A DNA stretch of 64,000 nt, taken from positions 9,801,001 through 9,865,000 of the forward strand of contig OX387204.1 in the NCBI GenBank assembly GCA_947561715.1, given 5' to 3'. This DNA is from Ascidia mentula (Eukaryota > Chordata > Ascidiacea > Phlebobranchia > Ascidiidae). The first letter of the stretch is position 1. Every line of letters starts with the position of its first letter. Positions 3,801-55,900 of this stretch are shown in pieces. Made by a program: the position numbers and the translations under genes. The notes under the pieces are model-generated. The model did not search any database. It was given only the letters and a program-made list of their open reading frames with translations, and was not told the DNA's origin.

Positions 3801-6800
3801 GTTTGATTGCAAAATTCTCATGTTGACCTAATTTCAGACAATTTTGCTTAGGCAGTTGAATTATTTTTGTTGTAAGGCCAGATTTGCAGTATGTTTCGCC
3901 AACTGGCCCACTATTTGTCTGTTTCGTCATACACCTATCTTGTGTATTGTGTAAGCTGCAGACAGATGACCACTGTTTCGACCTAAAAGGTCTCATCAGT
4001 GCAGCTATCTTGTGTGTTTATTGTTAATGCTGCCGTTTTGGCAAATATGCCTCGTGCATTGGAATTCAGAGACAGTATTGCTGGTGATGTCTTAATAACA
4101 AATTAACACGTCATAATGCAATTGATGCCTATGATCGCATTATGCATCTTTTGAAAAAAATTATCAGTATCGGACAACCCCAGACCTTAAAAAGGTGCTT
4201 TTCCGAAAAGTGTCTCGCAACAAATTCCCTGTTTAAATAGTGAACCATACTGTGATTGTGCTCATTTAAACAATCTCAGATTTTTCTTAGAATAAAGGGT
4301 TTTAATGCCATACTTACCTGAGGCCTGCAAAGCACATCAGAATATTTCTGATTTATCATCTTCTCAAATAATTATTTTTTTGTAGCCTTGCAGTTATCGC
4401 ACCTTCTGCTGTTAATTCAACAAACTTACTTATTATGCTTGCAGTCCGCCTTTCATTGTTCTGAAATAGTATTGTGCCCCCACAGTCTCACAAACTTGGA
4501 CCATGATCACAGTGTTCTGTGTGGGCCCTACAGTTTTCTTAAATTTTGGGTTTAGGTGTAAGTATAAGGTGTCTAAGGCATTTCAATAATTTGTTATCAC
4601 CAGAAAGTTAAAACACTCTTTGTACTTTCTTGGATTGGCTAATCTATTTACAAGTTTAATAGTATTTGCACCTATGGTTGTTACACAACATTAAATTTTT
4701 TAGATCGTTGTATTCGCCAGTATGTAGATTGCCTGATGAACTCCGAATACTTCAAAAACCTGTCTTTGTCCATTGAAACAAGTAGGTGGTATTAGTATTT
4801 TTTTAAAAAAAAAACAGAGATGGTCAATATTTTTGTTAGGTGAATGCATTCATGAATCACCTGACAAAATGTCAGTTAATACAGTTTCTGTTGAAAACTG
4901 CTGTGATGCAGTTGAAAAAAATGGTACCTCCCTAAAAGGTGAGTGATTTTTTCTCTCAGGCCACATTGGAGATGTTTTGTTTTTTCGCAAATATTGATTG
5001 CATATTTGTAGGTGAAACGAAAAAAATGACATAAGAAAGCAAAAAGAAAACAACATCAAAATTTCTTTATATTATTTTATACATTGAAGATTTTTTGCCT
5101 AGCTTGCATGATATTTTTTTGAGAAAAATAAAATAGACTTAAAATTTTATATTGCTTTGGAAGTGCAATATGTTATTGTGCATTGGGAAAAAGTGGGGCA
5201 CAATTATGGATTTTAAAAGTTGTTGTAATCTTGAGCATATAACAACCCTTATGCAGTGCCTATAAATTTGGAAGAATAGTGTGTTACCATTTATTTTGTA
5301 AACAAAAATTGTTTGTTGTTATCCAGGTAAAAAAAATACCATTGTAAATGCATCATGATCAGCTTGGACTTGCCTTAGATATACATCAGCCTATTCATTC
5401 TTCTTGTCTTGTACTAATGTGGCTGATGATCACCATCAGTATGATCTTTTGCTTTCAACAACAAAAATATTAACTTTGTGTTTTGCCTGATATAAATGTC
5501 ATTGGCAGTTTCTTCTCAAATTCTATTTCCTAGCCACTAGGCAGAATCAATATTTTTGTTTTCCAAAATAAAAGATCATACTGGCACTGTTTCCGTATAA
5601 ATTTGTTGGTAATTTGCTAATCTTCTAATGGGTTTCTTTCAGAGGCATTTTGCGATCCATTACAGAGTGTTAGTTGTGAAAGTTCATCAAGGGCTGATGT
5701 AAGTTATGCAATTGTTTTCACAGTTCAATTTCATACGCAGTCGCAGCTTGTCAATCCAAACTCAGAACATCTAAAAACTCCAGTAACCCATTAAAACTTT
5801 TAGAACAGAGTTTTTTCCTTGCATTTCACCCATTTGGTAAACCTACAATTTTTTAAACACAATTATTTACCCACACAGAATATAGTGGTAGCAATTGTTA
5901 CACGTCATTGTGTAATTAACACTTTTTTAAGCAATCAACTGGGGTAAAGTGCTGGTTTTGTTTTTGCGCTGGATAAATTTGTTTCCAATTACATTGTTGT
6001 TTTTTTTATGCTAAATGGCTTTCTTTTGTTCTTTCAAATTTTCTGTTTAGTTGTGTTGTCCTAGTAGTGTCCATAACTTTATAGTTCTTTCTTGGTTATA
6101 TCATTCCCTTCAGGGAGTAAATCAGGCAATTTCTGCTGAAAGCACAAAAAGCATTGGCCCAAACTATTATTTTTTCATTTTTCTACCAAGATACCTAATT
6201 AAACCAACTTTGTGTAATGAAACCTATCAGTTGGAAAAAATGAGAAACATTTGGACATAACTAAATAAATGATGTTTGAAATAGTGGGTCCCAGGAAAAT
6301 AGGCAACAATGTGAATTTCTAAATGCATAAATACCTATGGAAAAAGATTTGTAGTGCACTAGGGCATCAATGGGGGTAAAGTTGACAGGTCGTAGGACTG
6401 CAGGTCCTCCCAACTCTAGCATCAGGACAAGTTGGCAAGCTGTCTTTGAAACCATAATAAAGCTCCCTGTATAGGTTTGTTAGTCTGGTGAGACTAGCTT
6501 ATATAGTCTGGTGAAACCAGAGACCTTGAAATGCTTTACATTGAAAGACAGAATGCACACAAGATAAATAGTAAAGTGATAGAAGGTCCAGGTATAATTT
6601 TAAAATTTGATTTTAAGCACATGTACTAGAACAATTACCAAATAACAAGCCACACTGCCCTTTATACAGTTTTTATTGTTTGTTGGATTACAAGCTTATT
6701 TTTTGTTTCAGCTGCATGCAGATGTAATTTTTAACAAACAGAATCCACTTTCTGTAGAGGACTTGTTGGCAGAAGTAACTGGACAATATGACTTTTTTCA

Positions 6801-11449: not shown

Positions 11450-14418
11450 ATGTCGACATTTTGTGCTGTGTTTGTGGTTTCTGTTACGAGAATAGTGCTA
11501 TCAGGTGCCATTCCTGTTTTTGCAGGAGACAAATATGAACTACAAACTATTACAACAGTCGCAGATAATATTCATTTGGAAAAAAATTTGGATGTAATCA
11601 CGTATTTTTCGTCGGGAATGACCAAGCAAGGAAGCAGTGAAAGTCAACTAAATCAAGAGAGAAGTACAGGGGCGACAAGCAACGTTTCGAATATAAATGC
11701 CTTTATTCATTCAAACAGTTCTAAGCAATCAATAAGAGTTGCCCCCAAGTACATGTTAGATATATTCAGACAGTTTACCAACAACCCTTACACGAAACCA
11801 GCTTCTGATATTATACGCAGCTTTTTTAATGAAGGTTTGTATGATTTTGTTATATCAAAAGAAAGTCTGTCAACAATATAGCAATCACTTTTATAATACT
11901 TGACAGCAAATGAGCAGATTCAAACCGAATTTCGAAGAATTAACGCATGTCCGTTGCACGTATTGACTGCTGGTTGCACAAGAAGACACTTACTCTCCTT
12001 TGATGTCTCTTCTATTTCATCACACGAGAAAATACTGATGGCGGAATTGCGACTGTACAAAATTGTGGAAATGGACAGGTAGTTTTTCTTGCATCTTTGT
12101 ACTTTTCTTGTGGTTTAATGTCGGCCCACAGAAAAACATAAAAAACCTGTAATGTGTTAGTTTTTCTCTAATACGTTTCTCAAAATTAAAAACTAATAGC
12201 AATTTGCATGTAGTGTTTGTAAGAATATCGCCAAAAACGTCATACATCAGTTACATCATCTTATTTTATTATCATAGTGGTTTCCAACTTTTAAAAACCG
12301 GTGACGCCCACGTCCCTTGCAAAATTTTATGACAACGCTCAGAAAAAAAAGAAGGCGTCTATTTGTTAATAATTGAATAAATTCCAAAAATATCAGCACA
12401 ATCATTCGTTTTTGTCAACCCAACACCTGAAAGGCTAACAAAAATAAAATTCGTAAAGCTTCTTGCTCTACGAGTGCTAGGAAAGTGAGGTTTCCACACC
12501 CCAACAATGTTAAAACGACACAGCGGTGCGTGATTGGGACGCTCCGTTAAGGAACCTTTGACGTAAGCTGTATACGAGGCATTTAAAGATTAAAGACATT
12601 TAAAAAACCTTGTCGATAGCTTAAGATAGGGGTTCCCAACCAGGGGCGCTCGCAGATCTATTCCCGGTACAAAAGTTGTTTTGTCATAATGTTTGTAATA
12701 GTAAACCTCGGTCAATCCCGTACGTGATTTTTCCGATGGGGGCGTTCTTCGCATTACGAGATATATAAAAATAAGCAACTTTTTTCCGGAAATGGCGAAG
12801 TACCGGATTAGATAATCGAAATTATCCAAAGTTGGGTTAGTAAAAACCCGTACTTCAACTTTATGCCAACTAGGCGAAGATCTGGTTAACCGAGGTTTGC
12901 CGCATGACGTTCGTTAAAGGGTGCGAGAACCGATTTCTGACTTCAAAAGGGTGCCAACAAGTAAAAAGGTTAGGAACCACTGATCTAGGCCTACATCAGA
13001 TGAGATATTTCTATATGGCGTAACCTATAAGTAATGACGTTTTTATAAGTTACCTATACTGTGCAGAATAAAGCATGGAAATTTGTATTTGGGGCGTACC
13101 ATTGTGAAATACCCAATGTAGTATTGACGAAATTAGACCAGATATTAATTTCAGAAAAACCTTTACCGGAAACGACAGAAAGGTGGATGTGTTTGAACTA
13201 TCATCACAAACGGACACAATTCTTTCAGAAAACGCAGAGCAGAAAAAACTGTAAGTAAGAAACATGCTAATGTTTAAATATTTCGCAAGCAATCAAACAA
13301 TTTGCCACAATGTTTGCCCCTTTCGGTGTTAAAACTCAAAAAAATCATTCCGCAACAATTACAATTTTAGGGTATCAAAGAAAAGTGTTCCTAAACCAAT
13401 AACAACCAACCAAACCCTGTTGCAGTGCTAATAATTATATCATGAACTAGATATGACAGTATTTTTCTTTTATCTATACTTTAAAAAGCATATGTTACGA
13501 CGTGTATTTGGGAACCTCAGAATTACGTGTCATTAGCAACTACAGGATTGAGGGTAGAACATATCTTATATTTTGTGTAGCCTACTAGATTCAAAACGAA
13601 TTATTGGACGAGCTAGCGGATGGGAAACCTTCTATATAACCAAGGCTCTTCGACGTTGGGTCAACAATGCAAATAAAACACATCACCTCGAGGTGCTAAT
13701 AGACAACATTTCCGAAGAAGGATTCAATGAAACTGTAATTTATCATTATTTTTGACTGCGCATACACCCATGATGCCAATTTTGTCCAAATAATTTAGAG
13801 TTGAAATAATTTAGCAAATTGTGCTTTGTTTTGATGTTGAGATGTTATCACTCATGTATAGGCTATCCCATAACTCCCATTTTTTAGGTAGAATTTGAGG
13901 AACATTCGAAAACAACCAACGAACCATTGTTGATTGTATTTTCCAGCGAAAAGAGAAATTACCTTAATACAATATTTAAGGAAAGAGACCCTGTTAGATT
14001 TGCAATCAATTCAACGGACACAACGCAAAGCAGAATAAAGCGGAGTTTGCAGTGGCGAGATGATGTTATACACAATAGGTTTCAATCAGATAGAAGACAC
14101 AATCAAAGGAAAGATTGCCACTTCGAAGAAATGGAAGTGATTTTTAAAAACATTGGCTATTCGTGGGTTCTTAATCCCGTGCGTTACCCAGCTGGTAAAT
14201 GTGTGGGGGAATGCAACATACCACTACAAGGCCAAAACTACACTCGACACGCCATTGTCCAAACGATGATGAACAGAATTTTTCCTCAAAATCATCGAAA
14301 ACCTTGTTGTGTTCCCATTAAACTCGGACCAATATCAATTCTCTATTTGGAAAATAACACAATAACATTTAACTACAAGTACGAGGGAATGAAAGTTTTG
14401 GAGTGCGGATGCAGATAA
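11450..14418 (+). CDS. TGF-beta family ligand precursor, Nodal/GDF1-3-like
   Basis: A secreted signalling precursor of 456 residues in five exons: 11450-11834, 11907-12078, 13122-13250, 13581-13734, 13888-14418, with all phases agreeing. The first ATG opens a hydrophobic signal peptide (FCAVFVVSVTRIVLSGAIPV). Propeptide marks are APKYMLDIFRQF, LLSFDVSSISSHEKILMAEL and GWETFYITKALRRWV. A furin-type site RIKR ends at 14043, leaving a 124-residue mature part on the last exon. The cystine-knot domain has all seven cysteines (CHFEE, CVGEC, CC, CGC) and ends in ECGCR. The CCVP..LGPISILYLENN stretch and final ECGCR fit Nodal or Vg1/GDF1-3 better than BMP5-8, but it is divergent and lacks a residue near IGYSWVLNP, so the exact orthology is open. 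An in-frame stop upstream (11423) supports the start. Confidence 0.9.
12275..12982. mobile_element. hAT-like MITE in intron 2 of the ligand gene
   Basis: TAGTGGTTTCCAACTTTT at the left is matched by an inverted CAGTGGTTCCTAACC at the right. A further hAT-like end, GGGGTTCCCAACCAGGGGC near 12628, lies inside, so this is probably a composite of two related elements. No transposase was seen and the 8-bp target duplication is not clear. Confidence 0.6.
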
Positions 14419-16455: not shown

Positions 16456-16492
16456 GAGCTGAAGACAGATGACCGCTGTTTCGACCTATTAT
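16456..16492 (-). ncRNA. Half hammerhead motif (3' half)
   Basis: On the minus strand, AGGTCGAAACAGCGGTCATC and TGTCTTCAGC match the second half of the complete motif at 3955-4005. The CTGATGAG half is missing. Another half copy, in opposite orientation, sits in the partner arm at 18151-18183, with GAAC instead of GAAAC. These are not expected to cleave. Confidence 0.55.
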
Positions 16493-17726
16493 ATCTTATT
16501 TAGTTGTGTAATAATAAAACAGTTACTGCAACAGGGTGTTCTTGTTGTTACAGCATTTATGATCGCTAACGTTATACATGAACGTTTGAAAACACGACAG
16601 AGACAAATCGTCAATTTAGCATTGTCGTTTTGTCCACTCACAGCAAAAGGTAGAAGTAGGTTAAATTAATTTTGAGGCTGGCAAAGACCGCCGAGAAAAA
16701 CCAACCAAACTAGCTGATTATACAACACAACATTGTTATTCTGTCATAGTACCACTTTTTATCCGACAGTGGCGTTGCCTACGAGTTCGCGTCATAAACG
16801 ATTTATTTAATTCGCCACAATCAACCACTAATGTATTTTTCGCAATATAGTTGTAACTAGATATGTTGGAATCATCAAATTAAAGTCAACACAAAGGTGA
16901 GGTTAAAGTTATGACATCACACTCAATATGACGTCATATAATGTCACTGAGCAAAGAAACGCACCATCCCCGTCCTATCGAAGTACAAAGTAATGAATTA
17001 TAATTCTGACGTTCTTCTGGTGAAAAACAACAAATATACACCTTTTTTTAAAAAAGATTGTATTTTCTGACGTTTCGCCTGTACGTATACGACTAGGCTT
17101 CTTCAGAGAATAAAACAAACACTGTAGCGAATCCACGAGCAAAGAAATTAATTAGCTATAGGCTACCTAATGTGTTAAATCGTAATGATGCAAATGTACT
17201 TTCGCCCGTGTTCCGCAATTTCGCCCGTAACCATTCTTGACTTTCGTTTCCATGTTTGGCCGTTTGACCCGTGATTGATGTTGTCCATTGATTTATGTCC
17301 CGCTGTGTTTTAGCTGTTGCGCCCTTTTGTACTTTTTCGTCGCTTAAAGTGCATATGACACGGCCATGACAACTTTGCGTAAAACTAAAGGTACATCTAC
17401 AAAAAACATATATTCAAAGTTTTACGGTTGTACGTCAACTAAAAAATGTAGAAAACTGCACGAAAAGTAACGGCGACCAAAAGTCGTAAACCTTTTGCGC
17501 TGAGGAGAAAAGGACATCACACAAGGCGCGTGCTTCGAAAAAATGCATTGTTTAGATAGGAGAAGGCGCCTTTTTTTGCAGATATCGAATAGTTTCAAAC
17601 ATAGGAGAATCCACAGATTACGTTACCTTGAAGGTCAGGACAGGGTTTTGCATTACACAAAAATTTGTCATTGTGACGTCACGAATCAAAGGCTTATTTG
17701 TCCCTAATTAACGAAAGACCATAGGG

Positions 17727-17964: not shown

Positions 17965-18490
17965 CCATAGGGTATAGCAGAAACGACATAACTGTGAGTG
18001 GACAAAACGGCAATGCTAAACTAACGGTTTGTCTCTGTCGTGTTTTCAAAAGTTCATGTATCACGTTAGCGATCATAAATGCTGTAACAACAAGAACACC
18101 CTGTCCCAGTAACTGTTTTATAATAATAATTACACAACTAAATAATACATAATAGGTCGAACAGCGGCCATCTGTCTTCAGCCTTAATTAACATAAAATT
18201 CGTTTATTGCACTTGTTCACTTTTTGTCCCCTGTTTAATGCAATATTATGCTAAACCAGTTTTACAATGTTTTCCATTCCTACGGATAAGGCTTGCTGCC
18301 AGCACTCGCGCACGACCGAATCGCCTTCTATGACGTCACGCAAAAATATCTCGCTTTCGCACGATTTCGTTCGCAGCGGCAAAAGTGCGACTTTGATCAG
18401 CTGTATCTCAGAAACCAGTCGTCGTATCAAGCTACTTTTTTCGCCAAAAATGTTCTAAAGTTATGAACATCTCTTAGTTTGATTATTAAC

Positions 18491-37609: not shown

Positions 37610-38399
37610 GTAAGTCTTTATTAACCGGAATAGAGTGTCAGCTTTTGTATCACGTTTTGTGTTTTTGGTACAGTGTTATCATAGTATACCTACACAATAA
37701 ATAAATATTATGCATAAATACAAGCGATATTTAGTTACTAAAACAGAGTTCCGAGATTAAAACATCAACCATATGACTGAAGGTCAACGCATTGGTCCAT
37801 TGGTTACAAATAGTTTCGGTAGTATTCATATCACCCACAATAAACTATGGACAAAAAGGTTTCTGGCATCCCTAAAATAATAGTAGTAAGACATAATTTC
37901 AGGTAGCTATACATGCCTGCACATATCTTTGCGTATTACTCGCAGCCACCTTTCAGTGGTCGTATCGCAACTTAAAAAAAGACATTTATTAACTATATTA
38001 ATCAGCAAACGACGAACAGGGCGACGTTATAAAATGTCCCGTTCGTGTAAACAGAGACTCAATCCAGCACTAAATAGTGTACACGTCTGATGATAAAAAG
38101 ATTTTACAATACCCTGCACACACCAGTTTCTTTCCAAATCTGTTTGCCTTCTGTGCTGGATTATTACCAAATCCTGCCAAAACAAAACTCCTCTTCCAAT
38201 CAAAAAATGTAACAATTTTGAGGAGTTTTTTGTATGAATTTCTTGTAATAATATTGGATAAACAAGTTGTATTTGCCTTTTTTTGCTTCGGAGTCAACGG
38301 TTCTGAAACAAACATAAGTATAATATGGCACAAGTTTACACCCTCCTTTTGGTTCTGAAACAAACATAACTATATCTTCCTATGTTAGACATAATAAAG

Positions 38400-38436
38400 T
38401 TAGGTCGAAACAGTGGCCATCTGTCTGCAGCTTATA
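38400..38436 (+). ncRNA. Half hammerhead motif (3' half)
   Basis: TTAGGTCGAAACAGTGGCCA then TCTGTCTGCAGCTTATACAC matches the second half, plus downstream flank, of the full motif at 3955-4005 (there GCAGCTTACACAA). The CTGATGAG half is replaced by unrelated sequence, so it should be inactive. Confidence 0.55.
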
Positions 38437-38660
38437 CACAAATTCATATTATTGGCTCCACATTGCTTATAATAAAGTTAGTTTCGAAATTTATTGGCAA
38501 TTGGCCATACTAGACAATAGACTTACCTACATTGAGCCACTGTACCCAGGGAAGCTTTTCAAAGTCTAGGCCTAAAAAATGTTTCGCACTGATCCCGTGT
38601 TTGGTCGTTCCAATTTTCCTTTTTATTTGATACATTTTTTTCAACTAAATCTAACTAAAG

Positions 38661-42785: not shown

Positions 42786-43544
42786 AGGCTAAGGCCATAG
42801 ATAATAAATAATTGGCTCCACATTGCTTATCATGTAATAAATAATGTCTGTAGTTTTTTCAATATATTTTTCTCTTAATAAATCCATCTAAGCTGTCTAA
42901 AGATCGCTTTGTTGGGATTTTAATATATAATTATTGACACGGTGTGCCATCGACAGCCTGCCAGGGGCCTTTGGTCTTTTGATCCAGTTTCTATTTATTA
43001 ATCACATTAGTTTTTTCACATATTAACTTCCAAATGCACTGGAAAGTTTTTTTGCGTAGTACACAAGCTTTGTTCGTTTAACTTATTGGGATTTTTTGAA
43101 CACAAGCCTTATGTCGAACCTATTTGTATTGGTGTAGCCTACTTGACCTACAGTTACTCACAAGTTACGATAATTGCGTTGATTTTTTTCGCTGTTATGA
43201 TATTACCGCTAAAGTGACTTCATATGGCAGCATTTTATCCCTTGTGCGACTCATATGCACGAGCAATTTAATGTCACTCATTAAGTCTCTTGCGCATCTA
43301 CGAAAGCAGAAGCACATTATTACAATCTTTTATTTCGTTATATTCTTGAATGTGTGTTATACCTTCTATTTTTGTGTATTGTATTAAAATAACATTAGGC
43401 CTAGATGTAACTGCAGGATGTTCGAGTTTTATTTCCCTATAGGGCTGTAACGTTACGGCCAACATACGAAAGCGTCCAAGATCAGTAATCTGGACAAAAT
43501 CGGTTGCCTGAACACGTGACTTCAGCGGCAAACATGGATTGTAC

Positions 43545-52956: not shown

Positions 52957-55900
52957 ATGGCAGTCAACTTTGTTAATGAAGATACAACTCAAATTATATC
53001 GCCGATGAAATCATTTAATCAGGTTTGGATTTTGTTAACAGATTTATAATTGGGGGCTTATTGCAATAGGATACATTGCTGTTTCGCTATAGGTAGCTTA
53101 GATGCAATATGTCTTCAGGACCTCTTCCACTTGTTTGTCAATATCAATTACTGGGGCTTGCAACTAAAACAGGGACCTAATATTTTGCATTTTTTGTCTC
53201 TTGTTTTTGGCCCAAAATAATGTCCAACCAGGGGGCAAATTCCTTTTATTAATTATTACTTTTTTGCAGAATGACAGTATAAAATAGCCTTGTGTCAAAC
53301 ATTTATTGTTAAGAATACATGTTTCGCTCAAAATAAGCAAATTCAGTTCTAAAATAAAACAGAAAACAAAAATAATAATAATAAAATGCTGAAAAATAAA
53401 TGCTAAAAACTGGCCGAACAAATGGGCTACTGGTGATAACTTGCGGCTGCGGCGCTACACCACGCAAGTAGGTCACCAGACATTGCTACTCAGAGTGTCT
53501 TTGAGGTTATCACCAGTAGCCCATTTGTTTGGCGATGGCGCCAAGCAAGGACCTGCGCAGTGGGGCGATCCTGCCAATCATGCCATTGCATGAAATATTA
53601 CTGCATTATCTGATACGGTGGTAGAGATCCCCTATGTATATGTGAAGGTTGCCTGGCAAGTTGTGCTTGCAACCAGTGTACCTTTGCCACAATATACCCC
53701 GTGAAACCACTGAGCTCCTGTAGCTCAGTTGGTAGAGCGTTGGGCCTGGTTAGCCCAGGGTCGTGAGTTCAAGCTTCACCGGGAGCTTGATTTTTCAAAT
53801 CTTGCTCCGACTTGTCAGGAAAAAGTGGCTGATCCAGCTAGGCTGCAATGCTTGGGCTGCAAACCTAATGATAGATTTAAACATTTATTCGCTGAACGTT
53901 AGAGCAGGTGCTGGCTGGTTTTTGCATGGATCCTGGCAGAGCAAACGATGGTGACATTAAGGTTTCAACACTACATAACCGTTCAGTTAAATGCTGTTGT
54001 TTAATGGTGACTTGAAATACAAATTTCTTCCCAAATAATTTTTTGTGGTTTGCCATTAAACGACTTTTGCTGGCACCAATGTCTTTGAACCACTTTTGCC
54101 ACCAGCATCTACGGCAAAAAGTTGATAATTTAAATGTCAATAGGAAAATCGTTGGTATCCAATCTTCGAAAAAAGAAAACTAATAAAATCAATGTGAATG
54201 TTGCTTATTGAAGTTATTATAGTAATTCAATTCATGGACTTTTGTAGATAACAATAGCGTTGGTCTGTTCGTAGTACTGTATACCAGTAACTTAATATTT
54301 TTTCACGATACCCTTGTCGAACACTTAGAATGGTGAAAAATCTTAAATGATGGCGGTAGAAAGTTTGTGTACTTTGTTTAAAATTAAATGTCAAAAGTGC
54401 TTGTTTGTAGCACAACTACTCACGACCAGCATACACGCAGGCGTATATATACACTGTTACGCCACAGTTATTAGACGTATCAAGGCAAGTGGCAGGAACG
54501 CACAATTGTATCTTTGTGAGGGCTACAAAATATTTTTCAAAACTTAATGCAATCAATATGTGCATTTTAAAGAAAAATCAACAATTTTAGATAATGGTAA
54601 ATGTCTGAATTTACTTTTAAAAAGGTGAGATCTTCTTAATGTTAATATTGACCTCACACTGACCTCATTCAGCTACCACAAGAGTTATTAACACGGTAGT
54701 CTACTGCAGGGCTTCCCAAACTTTCGCGCTCAACTCCTTTTAATCTCCTAAAATTTTCTGCGACCCTTCAGAGATAGTATGACAAACAGTGCAAAATATA
54801 GATTTGTTATATTTATTGAAGGGATTATTTCGAACGAAAACCAAAAACAAGCTACCGGTACTCGAAGCCTACTACTTGACACATAGGTATCCTTCTGGAA
54901 ACAAAACAAAAAACCAAACACTTATTCAGCGTGATGGGTGCGACTGCTTTCTGCTACAAAGCAAGTCCAGACGTGGCTCTATACTTGTTAATGCTGGTCT
55001 CAAGGCGATTTCAATGTTGCTTAGGCTGGAACGGTATTTTGTTTTGATTGCCGTCAATGTTGAGAACGCAGACTCACAAAAATACGTCGAGACAAACGGC
55101 AGGAGTGCGGTCACTGCTGAGTCAGATAATAATGGATATTCCGCTCTGACGCTTAGCCAAAAAGTGTTAGCTTTTTTCCAGAAAATTCAAGCCGCAACTT
55201 AGAATCAGAAGATAGATCAGCAAGTTCTTCCTGAGATTTGAGAGAGAGATGCTCGGTACTTTGTTTTTGCGTTGCAAATGGGTTTTGGATCCAATCTGAT
55301 TTGCTATTGTCTAATTCTGGAAAAATATACTTCTGAAACTGTTTCAACAGATTTGACAAATGGTCAATTACCAGAGGTTTGATAACGTTTGATTCCACAC
55401 CATTGTTAGCCAAAAACTCTTCTATAAATGAGAACATTTCAAATGAATAATTTTCAACTTTTTGTTTCCAGATGTTTAATTTTTTGATAAAGGCTTCAAT
55501 TTTAGATTTCAATGTAAAAACATTAGTGTTTTCTCCTTGGAGGGACAAATTAAGTTCGTTCAGTTTTTCAAGCAAATCTGACAAATAGCATAATTTCAAC
55601 AGCCAGCTCTCATTGTGAAGATGTTGGACCAAATCTGAATTTTTCTCCGTTAGAAAAATCATGACTTCATTTTTCAACATTAATAGCCTTTTTAAAGCTT
55701 TGGCTTTTGAAAGCCACCTTACTTCACAATGCAGAAAAAGGGTTTTGAACTCTGACTCCATTTCACCACATAAATTTGCAAAAATACGGGTATTGTGTGC
55801 GCGACTCTTAATAAAGTTAATAACTTTCACAGCATCTTGGGTTGGACTGCATAGATTAGGTGTATGTTCCTTTGTATACAAGGAAAGGTTGTGTGGTTGT

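Follow-up and report, generated by a model that had tools for sequence, protein, structure and literature searches.

The hammerhead motif on the minus strand of the window, a 64,000-nucleotide stretch of Ascidia mentula chromosome 8 (positions 9,801,001–9,865,000), is, judged by its sequence, the 3′ end of a retrozyme of the metazoan type, a retroelement ~285 nt long that is non-coding and carries its ribozyme at this end. The scars left by retrozyme insertion suggest that the enzyme of a Penelope-like element places these sequences into the genome. Retrozymes themselves are a known kind of element, and the junction evidence for a Penelope-like mobilizer is the new part. Taken as a whole, the explanation that the window holds a truncated retrozyme copy, and that the family moves as RNA circles inserted by a Penelope-like enzyme with priming at two sites, is considered very probable.

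A pattern scan of both strands of the window gave one tight hammerhead match, at 3954–4006 (53 nt), in which all core bases of a type I hammerhead and three stems could be read, with stem I open. Stem I (AGCUGCA/UGCAGCU, 7 bp) pairs 4006–4000 with 3960–3954 and is followed by the core CUGAUGA at 3999–3993; stem II, of 4–5 bp, pairs 3992–3989 with 3983–3980, plus U3988–A3984; GAAA occupies 3979–3976; and stem III (4 bp, 3976–3973 with 3965–3962) carries a loop of 7 nt. The invariants of type I hammerheads (CUGANGA, GAAA, U16.1–H17, and three stems) are thus all present, and C17, the predicted cleavage-site C, lies opposite 3961. An earlier note on this DNA had described a complete minus-strand hammerhead with its cleavage C at this same place, and both readings are borne out; the same pattern scan gave 0 matches in 150 first-order random windows, loose setting included. 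The 51 bases that it assigned to the motif (3955–4005) do hold the hammerhead but stop one stem I base pair short. Elsewhere in the window, a loose, long-looped hammerhead-like pattern near 17.5 kb (~17494–17582, plus strand) is probably due to chance.

Against the Rfam type I model, the window motif scored 16.8 bits, under the gathering cut-off of 34, and a whole-window Rfam scan at the gathering score listed no hammerhead. This covariance check had been proposed in the earlier note, in which a poor score was counted against the motif. Family copies elsewhere also lie under the Rfam cut-off: five retrozyme copies in one array (L027) reached 22.6–24.8 bits, with the type III model only and at about half of its 48.5 cut-off, and none of the copies in a second array (L085) was listed by Rfam at E up to 1. 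The low score is therefore not peculiar to the window copy. Nearest-neighbor energies place the hammerhead fold (−15.1) above the minimum, which is −18.1 for the window sequence and −17.4 for the family version. In the window motif, inspection by eye showed no stem I bulge of the classical kind, as used for the loop I–loop II contact; active mussel ribozymes without most conserved loop-contact nucleotides are described in the available text of PMC7229834.

Table 1. Features placed within the window (positions are counted from its first base)
Feature	Position	Strand	Basis or remark
Left 11-bp target-site duplication CTATCTTGTGT	3935..3945	.	Flank comparison, row L001
5′-truncated retrozyme insert, 59 bp	3946..4004	-	Ends at 3′ site A, +18 on reference unit
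Type I hammerhead ribozyme motif	3954..4006	-	Predicted cleavage between 3961 and 3960; motif scan, stems read directly
Right 11-bp target-site duplication CTATCTTGTGT	4005..4015	.	Flank comparison, row L001
TGF-beta family C-terminal domain exon	13888..14418	+	PF00019, E 7.7e-24
Half-hammerhead match, unit 260–284	16464..16488	-	Comparison with unit
Half-hammerhead match, unit 260–284	18153..18176	+	Comparison with unit
Left 13-bp duplication ATAATAAAGTTAG of second remnant	38391..38403	.	Last 4 bases also match unit
Second retrozyme remnant, part of ribozyme and tail	38404..38468	+	Ends at site B, about +43
Right 13-bp duplication ATAATAAAGTTAG of second remnant	38469..38481	.	Flank comparison
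26-bp match to part of unit tail (23–48)	42808..42833	+	Comparison with unit
tRNA-Thr (GGT)	53713..53788	+	Rfam, 50.3 bits

The features of the window are collected in Table 1. The common flanks that had been remarked on around the motif are real, and represent a target-site duplication on either side of a short insert. The 5′ truncation of this insert falls inside stem I, the last two bases of which (4005–4006) belong to the duplication, giving 2 nt of microhomology at the 5′ junction of the copy. Compared with the reference unit, the copy has one mismatch, in the stem III loop; the copy itself is most likely inert. An idea formed by eye, that tandem decayed hammerheads surround the window copy, was dropped, as the target-site duplications account for the flanks. 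The two half-hammerheads of the window are embedded in a second, longer repeat, the two copies of which have common flanks, and this repeat may be another element with a captured ribozyme half. Two inverted repeats, 5437–5478/5542–5583 (42 nt, 81%) and 930–958/1651–1679 (29 nt, 86%), each look like a small foldback or miniature element. Ten reading frames between 137 and 11881 gave no Pfam family above cut-off.

The genome (195.8 Mb in 79 contigs) was searched for further copies, and an exact 27-base core was found 731 times (373 + 358), compared with 0 control matches. With a 77-base query, at least 44 matches were obtained when the best 40 of 1311 first-look candidates were scored. The proposal in the earlier note that the ribozyme had come in with a small retro-element is supported by these exact cores, by duplications around most sampled copies, and by 5′ truncations. 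The 51-bp unit that the note named for a genome search has a widespread core, but it is not itself the repeat unit: the 51 bp are the 3′ part of a retrozyme of ~285 bp (283–286 bp in the three arrays measured), with the ribozyme near the 3′ end. Units were found alone, in tandem, or as head-to-head (inverted) arrays, and tandem units inside one array differ by 0–3 substitutions and at most one gap (three arrays measured). Metazoan retrozymes are recognized by a type I hammerhead in a tandem unit of 150–450 bp, by the lack of LTRs, by duplications of more than 4 bp, and by many dispersed copies, all of which are seen in the A. mentula family (with the unit length again from three arrays). The GC content of the reference unit, 47.9%, is under the 50% given in the available text of PMC7229834 and above the 45% of its figure legend.

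The ends of the insertions were examined in 60 loci, 40 found by similarity search and 20 being exact core matches on chromosome 1; four overlapping duplicate loci were dropped to leave 56 rows. Among these sampled loci, of which L001–L040 had been picked by similarity to query copies ending at site A, the outer 3′ ends past the cleavage site cluster in two places, A (+8 to +21) and B (+35 to +55). A 3′ end was present on both outer sides in 30 of the 56 rows and on one side in 26. A duplication was called in 25 of the 30 two-sided rows (the exceptions being L033, L071, L079, L080, and L087), corresponding to 23 insertions once the duplicated pairs L004/L005 and L074/L075 were merged. One A end (+10 to +21) was combined with one B end (+41 to +55) in 21 of these 23 head-to-head insertions, although for 4 of the 21 (L010, L013, L014, and L082) B was assigned from a short piece of tail that aligned with a low score (16–44). 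L036, which is A/B by eye and lacks a clean duplication (the automated call is a chance 8-mer), stands outside the 21. L038 is an exception, with outer ends at 266 and 43; in this locus and in L033, the latter without a duplication, one arm starts near unit position 266–268, inside the ribozyme, and the other at B, and the former start could be a third priming site. The 26 one-sided rows comprised 14 A ends (8–19), 4 B ends (35–44), 1 end at 25 that was left unassigned, and 7 rows without a call.

Duplications of at least 9 bp were found in 35 of the 56 rows, and of at least 11 bp in 29, whereas mismatched flank pairs used as a control (3000 draws) gave at least 8 bp in 6.5%, at least 9 bp in 2.4%, and at least 11 bp in 0.3%. 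The lengths among the 35 rows were 12 bp (10 rows), 13 bp (10), 11 bp (5), 9 bp (5), 14 bp (3), 10 bp (1), and 16 bp (1); a further 9 rows had 8 bp only, and 12 had no call. The duplications are 81% AT. With each locus turned so that A lies on the right, the left flank ended in AAC or AAA in 15 of 33 loci (background 7.4%) and the right flank began with GTT or TTT in 9 of 33 (background 6.6%), which suggests a near-symmetric target preference. Folding of a hairpin between A and B was barely better than that of shuffled sequences (z = −1.3 and −1.7), and no weight was given to it.

The two arms of one insertion were then compared wherever at least 40 positions were comparable, which was the case for 18 of 21 arrays (a list that took in L036 and left out L014). 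With a position scored as equal whenever some unit in one arm agreed there with some unit in the other, the arms differed at 61 of 2416 positions (2.5%), compared with 2493 of 52888 (4.7%) between insertions, and 0 of 2000 permutations gave a value as low as that within insertions. This fits copying of both arms from one RNA, which would most simply be a circle; a linear multimer RNA as template would also be compatible with the arm sequences. The inverted arrays might instead come about when a single cDNA or antisense template primes itself, as opposed to priming from both target strands. The 21-bp overlap at the head-to-head junction of L031 speaks for this, as do the palindromes at rotifer inverted junctions, from which self-priming was favored by the authors in the accessible part of PMC3846280. 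Self-priming alone, however, would not account for the A/B pairing of outer ends seen in 21 of 23 insertions, and the arms in L027, L026, L034, and L085 begin at different unit positions with 0–3 bp in common, so that we regard this route as unlikely, if the least unlikely of the alternatives.

Penelope-like elements are represented in the same genome by at least 121 GIY-YIG matches, obtained when 150 of 382 candidates were scored; several of these lie in open frames of ~800–890 amino acids that form tandem or inverted arrays. Minimal hammerhead patterns were picked up by a relaxed scan in 20 of 30 GIY-YIG loci, compared with 0.2 matches in random sequence, though many of these 20 loci are copies of the same families and not independent; the position of the pattern is fixed within each family, and several of the 20 have U or A, not C, at the cleavage position. 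With a stricter scan, in which a bulge at the stem II base was disallowed, none of the 30 loci gave a pattern, whereas a still looser scan (4-bp stem I, run without a random control) gave patterns in 9 of 10 Penelope-like downstream regions. Rfam listed none of the hammerheads of four Penelope-like loci at E up to 1. Three Penelope-like inverted arrays were compared, and all three have a short end, another end that is 38–44 nt longer, and a 12-bp duplication; in the one array checked, the extra stretch of the longer end runs on as in the internal unit. Some findings speak against a Penelope-like mobilizer. Site A lies +10 to +21 past the cleavage site in retrozyme arrays, compared with about +61 in one Penelope-like family and about +75 in another; among 10 downstream regions of Penelope-like elements, none resembled the priming region of the retrozyme better than shuffles did; and the arms of L038 and L033 that start near unit position 266–268 do not follow the A/B rule. 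An origin of the ribozyme on board a Penelope-like element was considered and rejected: the matches in L042, L049, and L070 are, by eye, retrozymes that inserted long ago into or beside Penelope-like copies, and that in L060 is a diverged copy.

Mobilization by a LINE, through ordinary target-primed reverse transcription with occasional twin priming, would also be compatible with duplications of 11–14 bp, 5′ truncation, and preferred 3′ ends. Twin priming yields a scattered second end. In the retrozymes, by contrast, two internal sites are preferred and hold the outer ends of 21 of the 23 inverted insertions, and inspection of copy ends by eye revealed neither a poly-A tail nor a simple-repeat one. 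The two-end pattern is moreover carried by three Penelope-like arrays of the same genome, in a junction comparison that covered retrozyme and Penelope-like ends. A LINE as the mobilizer thus appears improbable, slightly more so than self-priming. A palindromic or foldback DNA transposon with an incidental hammerhead, suggested by the many head-to-head copies, can practically be dismissed given the non-equivalent outer ends (A versus B), the variable duplication length, and the existence of solo 5′-truncated copies and tandem units. Equally implausible is the idea that the motif was domesticated by the adjacent TGF-beta gene as a ribozyme or splice element, to which the intact core and the position upstream of the exon would lend themselves: the motif is antisense, is separated from the identified exon downstream by ~9.9 kb, and has one of 731 identical cores, the sole base at which it departs from the reference unit being in the loop of stem III. 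A splice acceptor previously proposed to overlap the motif at 4004/4005 likewise found no support, since the CAG belongs to stem I and the sole domain-supported exon nearby is that of the TGF-beta gene.

Insertion by Penelope-like machinery is instead indicated by the two-site ends, the A/B pairing in 21 of 23 insertions, the similar duplication length, the head-to-head tandem architecture, and the common order from hammerhead to B. In the available text of PMC11167929, a lizard Penelope-like protein, in purified form, initiates reverse transcription inside its RNA, at two neighboring sites, and cleaves and extends both strands; the two start sites explain a genomic tail of 30–40 nt, called unique to Penelope-like elements by the authors. 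In rotifer Penelope elements, as described in the accessible part of PMC3846280, the tail is optional and found at one of two inverted terminal repeats, and duplications are of 8–10 bp.

Under the Penelope-like reading, the retrozyme repeats would be transcribed, and the hammerhead would cut the transcript into units that then circularize. A Penelope-like reverse transcriptase/GIY-YIG endonuclease would nick an AT-rich target on both strands, ~12 bp apart, and the RNA circle would be primed at internal site A from one strand and at site B from the other. Repeated rounds of the circle would give tandem units, and the two cDNAs would meet head to head and be joined there, in many cases across an overlap of a few bases. 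Where a single arm was made, or synthesis stopped early, a solo truncated copy such as the 59-bp window insert would result. The broader claim, that retrozymes are parasites mobilized in trans, with a Penelope-like reverse transcriptase copying circles from both nicked strands and an A/B rule general to both kinds of element, is held with less assurance, although we consider it rather probable.

Penelope-like elements, Terminons, or LINEs have been put forward as retrozyme mobilizers (PMC7229834 and PMC7761336, in their available text), Cervera and de la Peña basing their proposal on common hammerheads, tandem copies, and co-occurrence (PMC7229834). As far as the available text of these two articles goes, the mobilizer of animal retrozymes has so far only been proposed; the junctions, as read from the genome sequence, point to Penelope-like machinery and are more direct evidence for it than that behind the earlier proposals. 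The A/B pattern can be checked in any retrozyme-bearing genome. The model of Penelope-like insertion by two-site priming from both strands also gains support, and a natural template of <300 nt could ease in vitro work. Among the papers brought up by literature searches, titles and abstract openings mentioned neither a tail signature in retrozymes nor a tunicate retrozyme, and earlier reports may be contained in subscription papers.

Among known systems, the plant LTR retrozymes resemble the A. mentula family in being non-autonomous and hammerhead-bearing with a circular RNA stage (available text of PMC4918200), a stage that is here predicted only, and differ in that their hammerheads are of type III and sit in LTRs, and that their duplications are 4 bp long (as given in the accessible part of PMC7229834). 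The metazoan non-LTR retrozymes of Cervera and de la Peña (2020) have the same anatomy as the family described here. Head-to-head arrays and two preferred 3′ ends, both seen in A. mentula, are not described in the available text of that article (PMC7229834), in which mobilizers were proposed without the junction evidence that is read here; expression and RNA circles were demonstrated there, whereas the A. mentula family is known here from the genome alone. Compared with Penelope-like elements, the retrozyme lacks the length needed to encode an enzyme of their kind, its stem III is longer, and its distance from cleavage site to A is much shorter; rotifer Penelope duplications are, in turn, shorter than those of the retrozyme. 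Going by the accessible parts of PMC11167929 and PMC3846280, the two kinds of element are nevertheless alike in having two internal start sites with an optional tail of 30–40 nt, in their tandem and inverted copies and AT-rich targets, and in the order of hammerhead, cleavage site, A, tail, and B.
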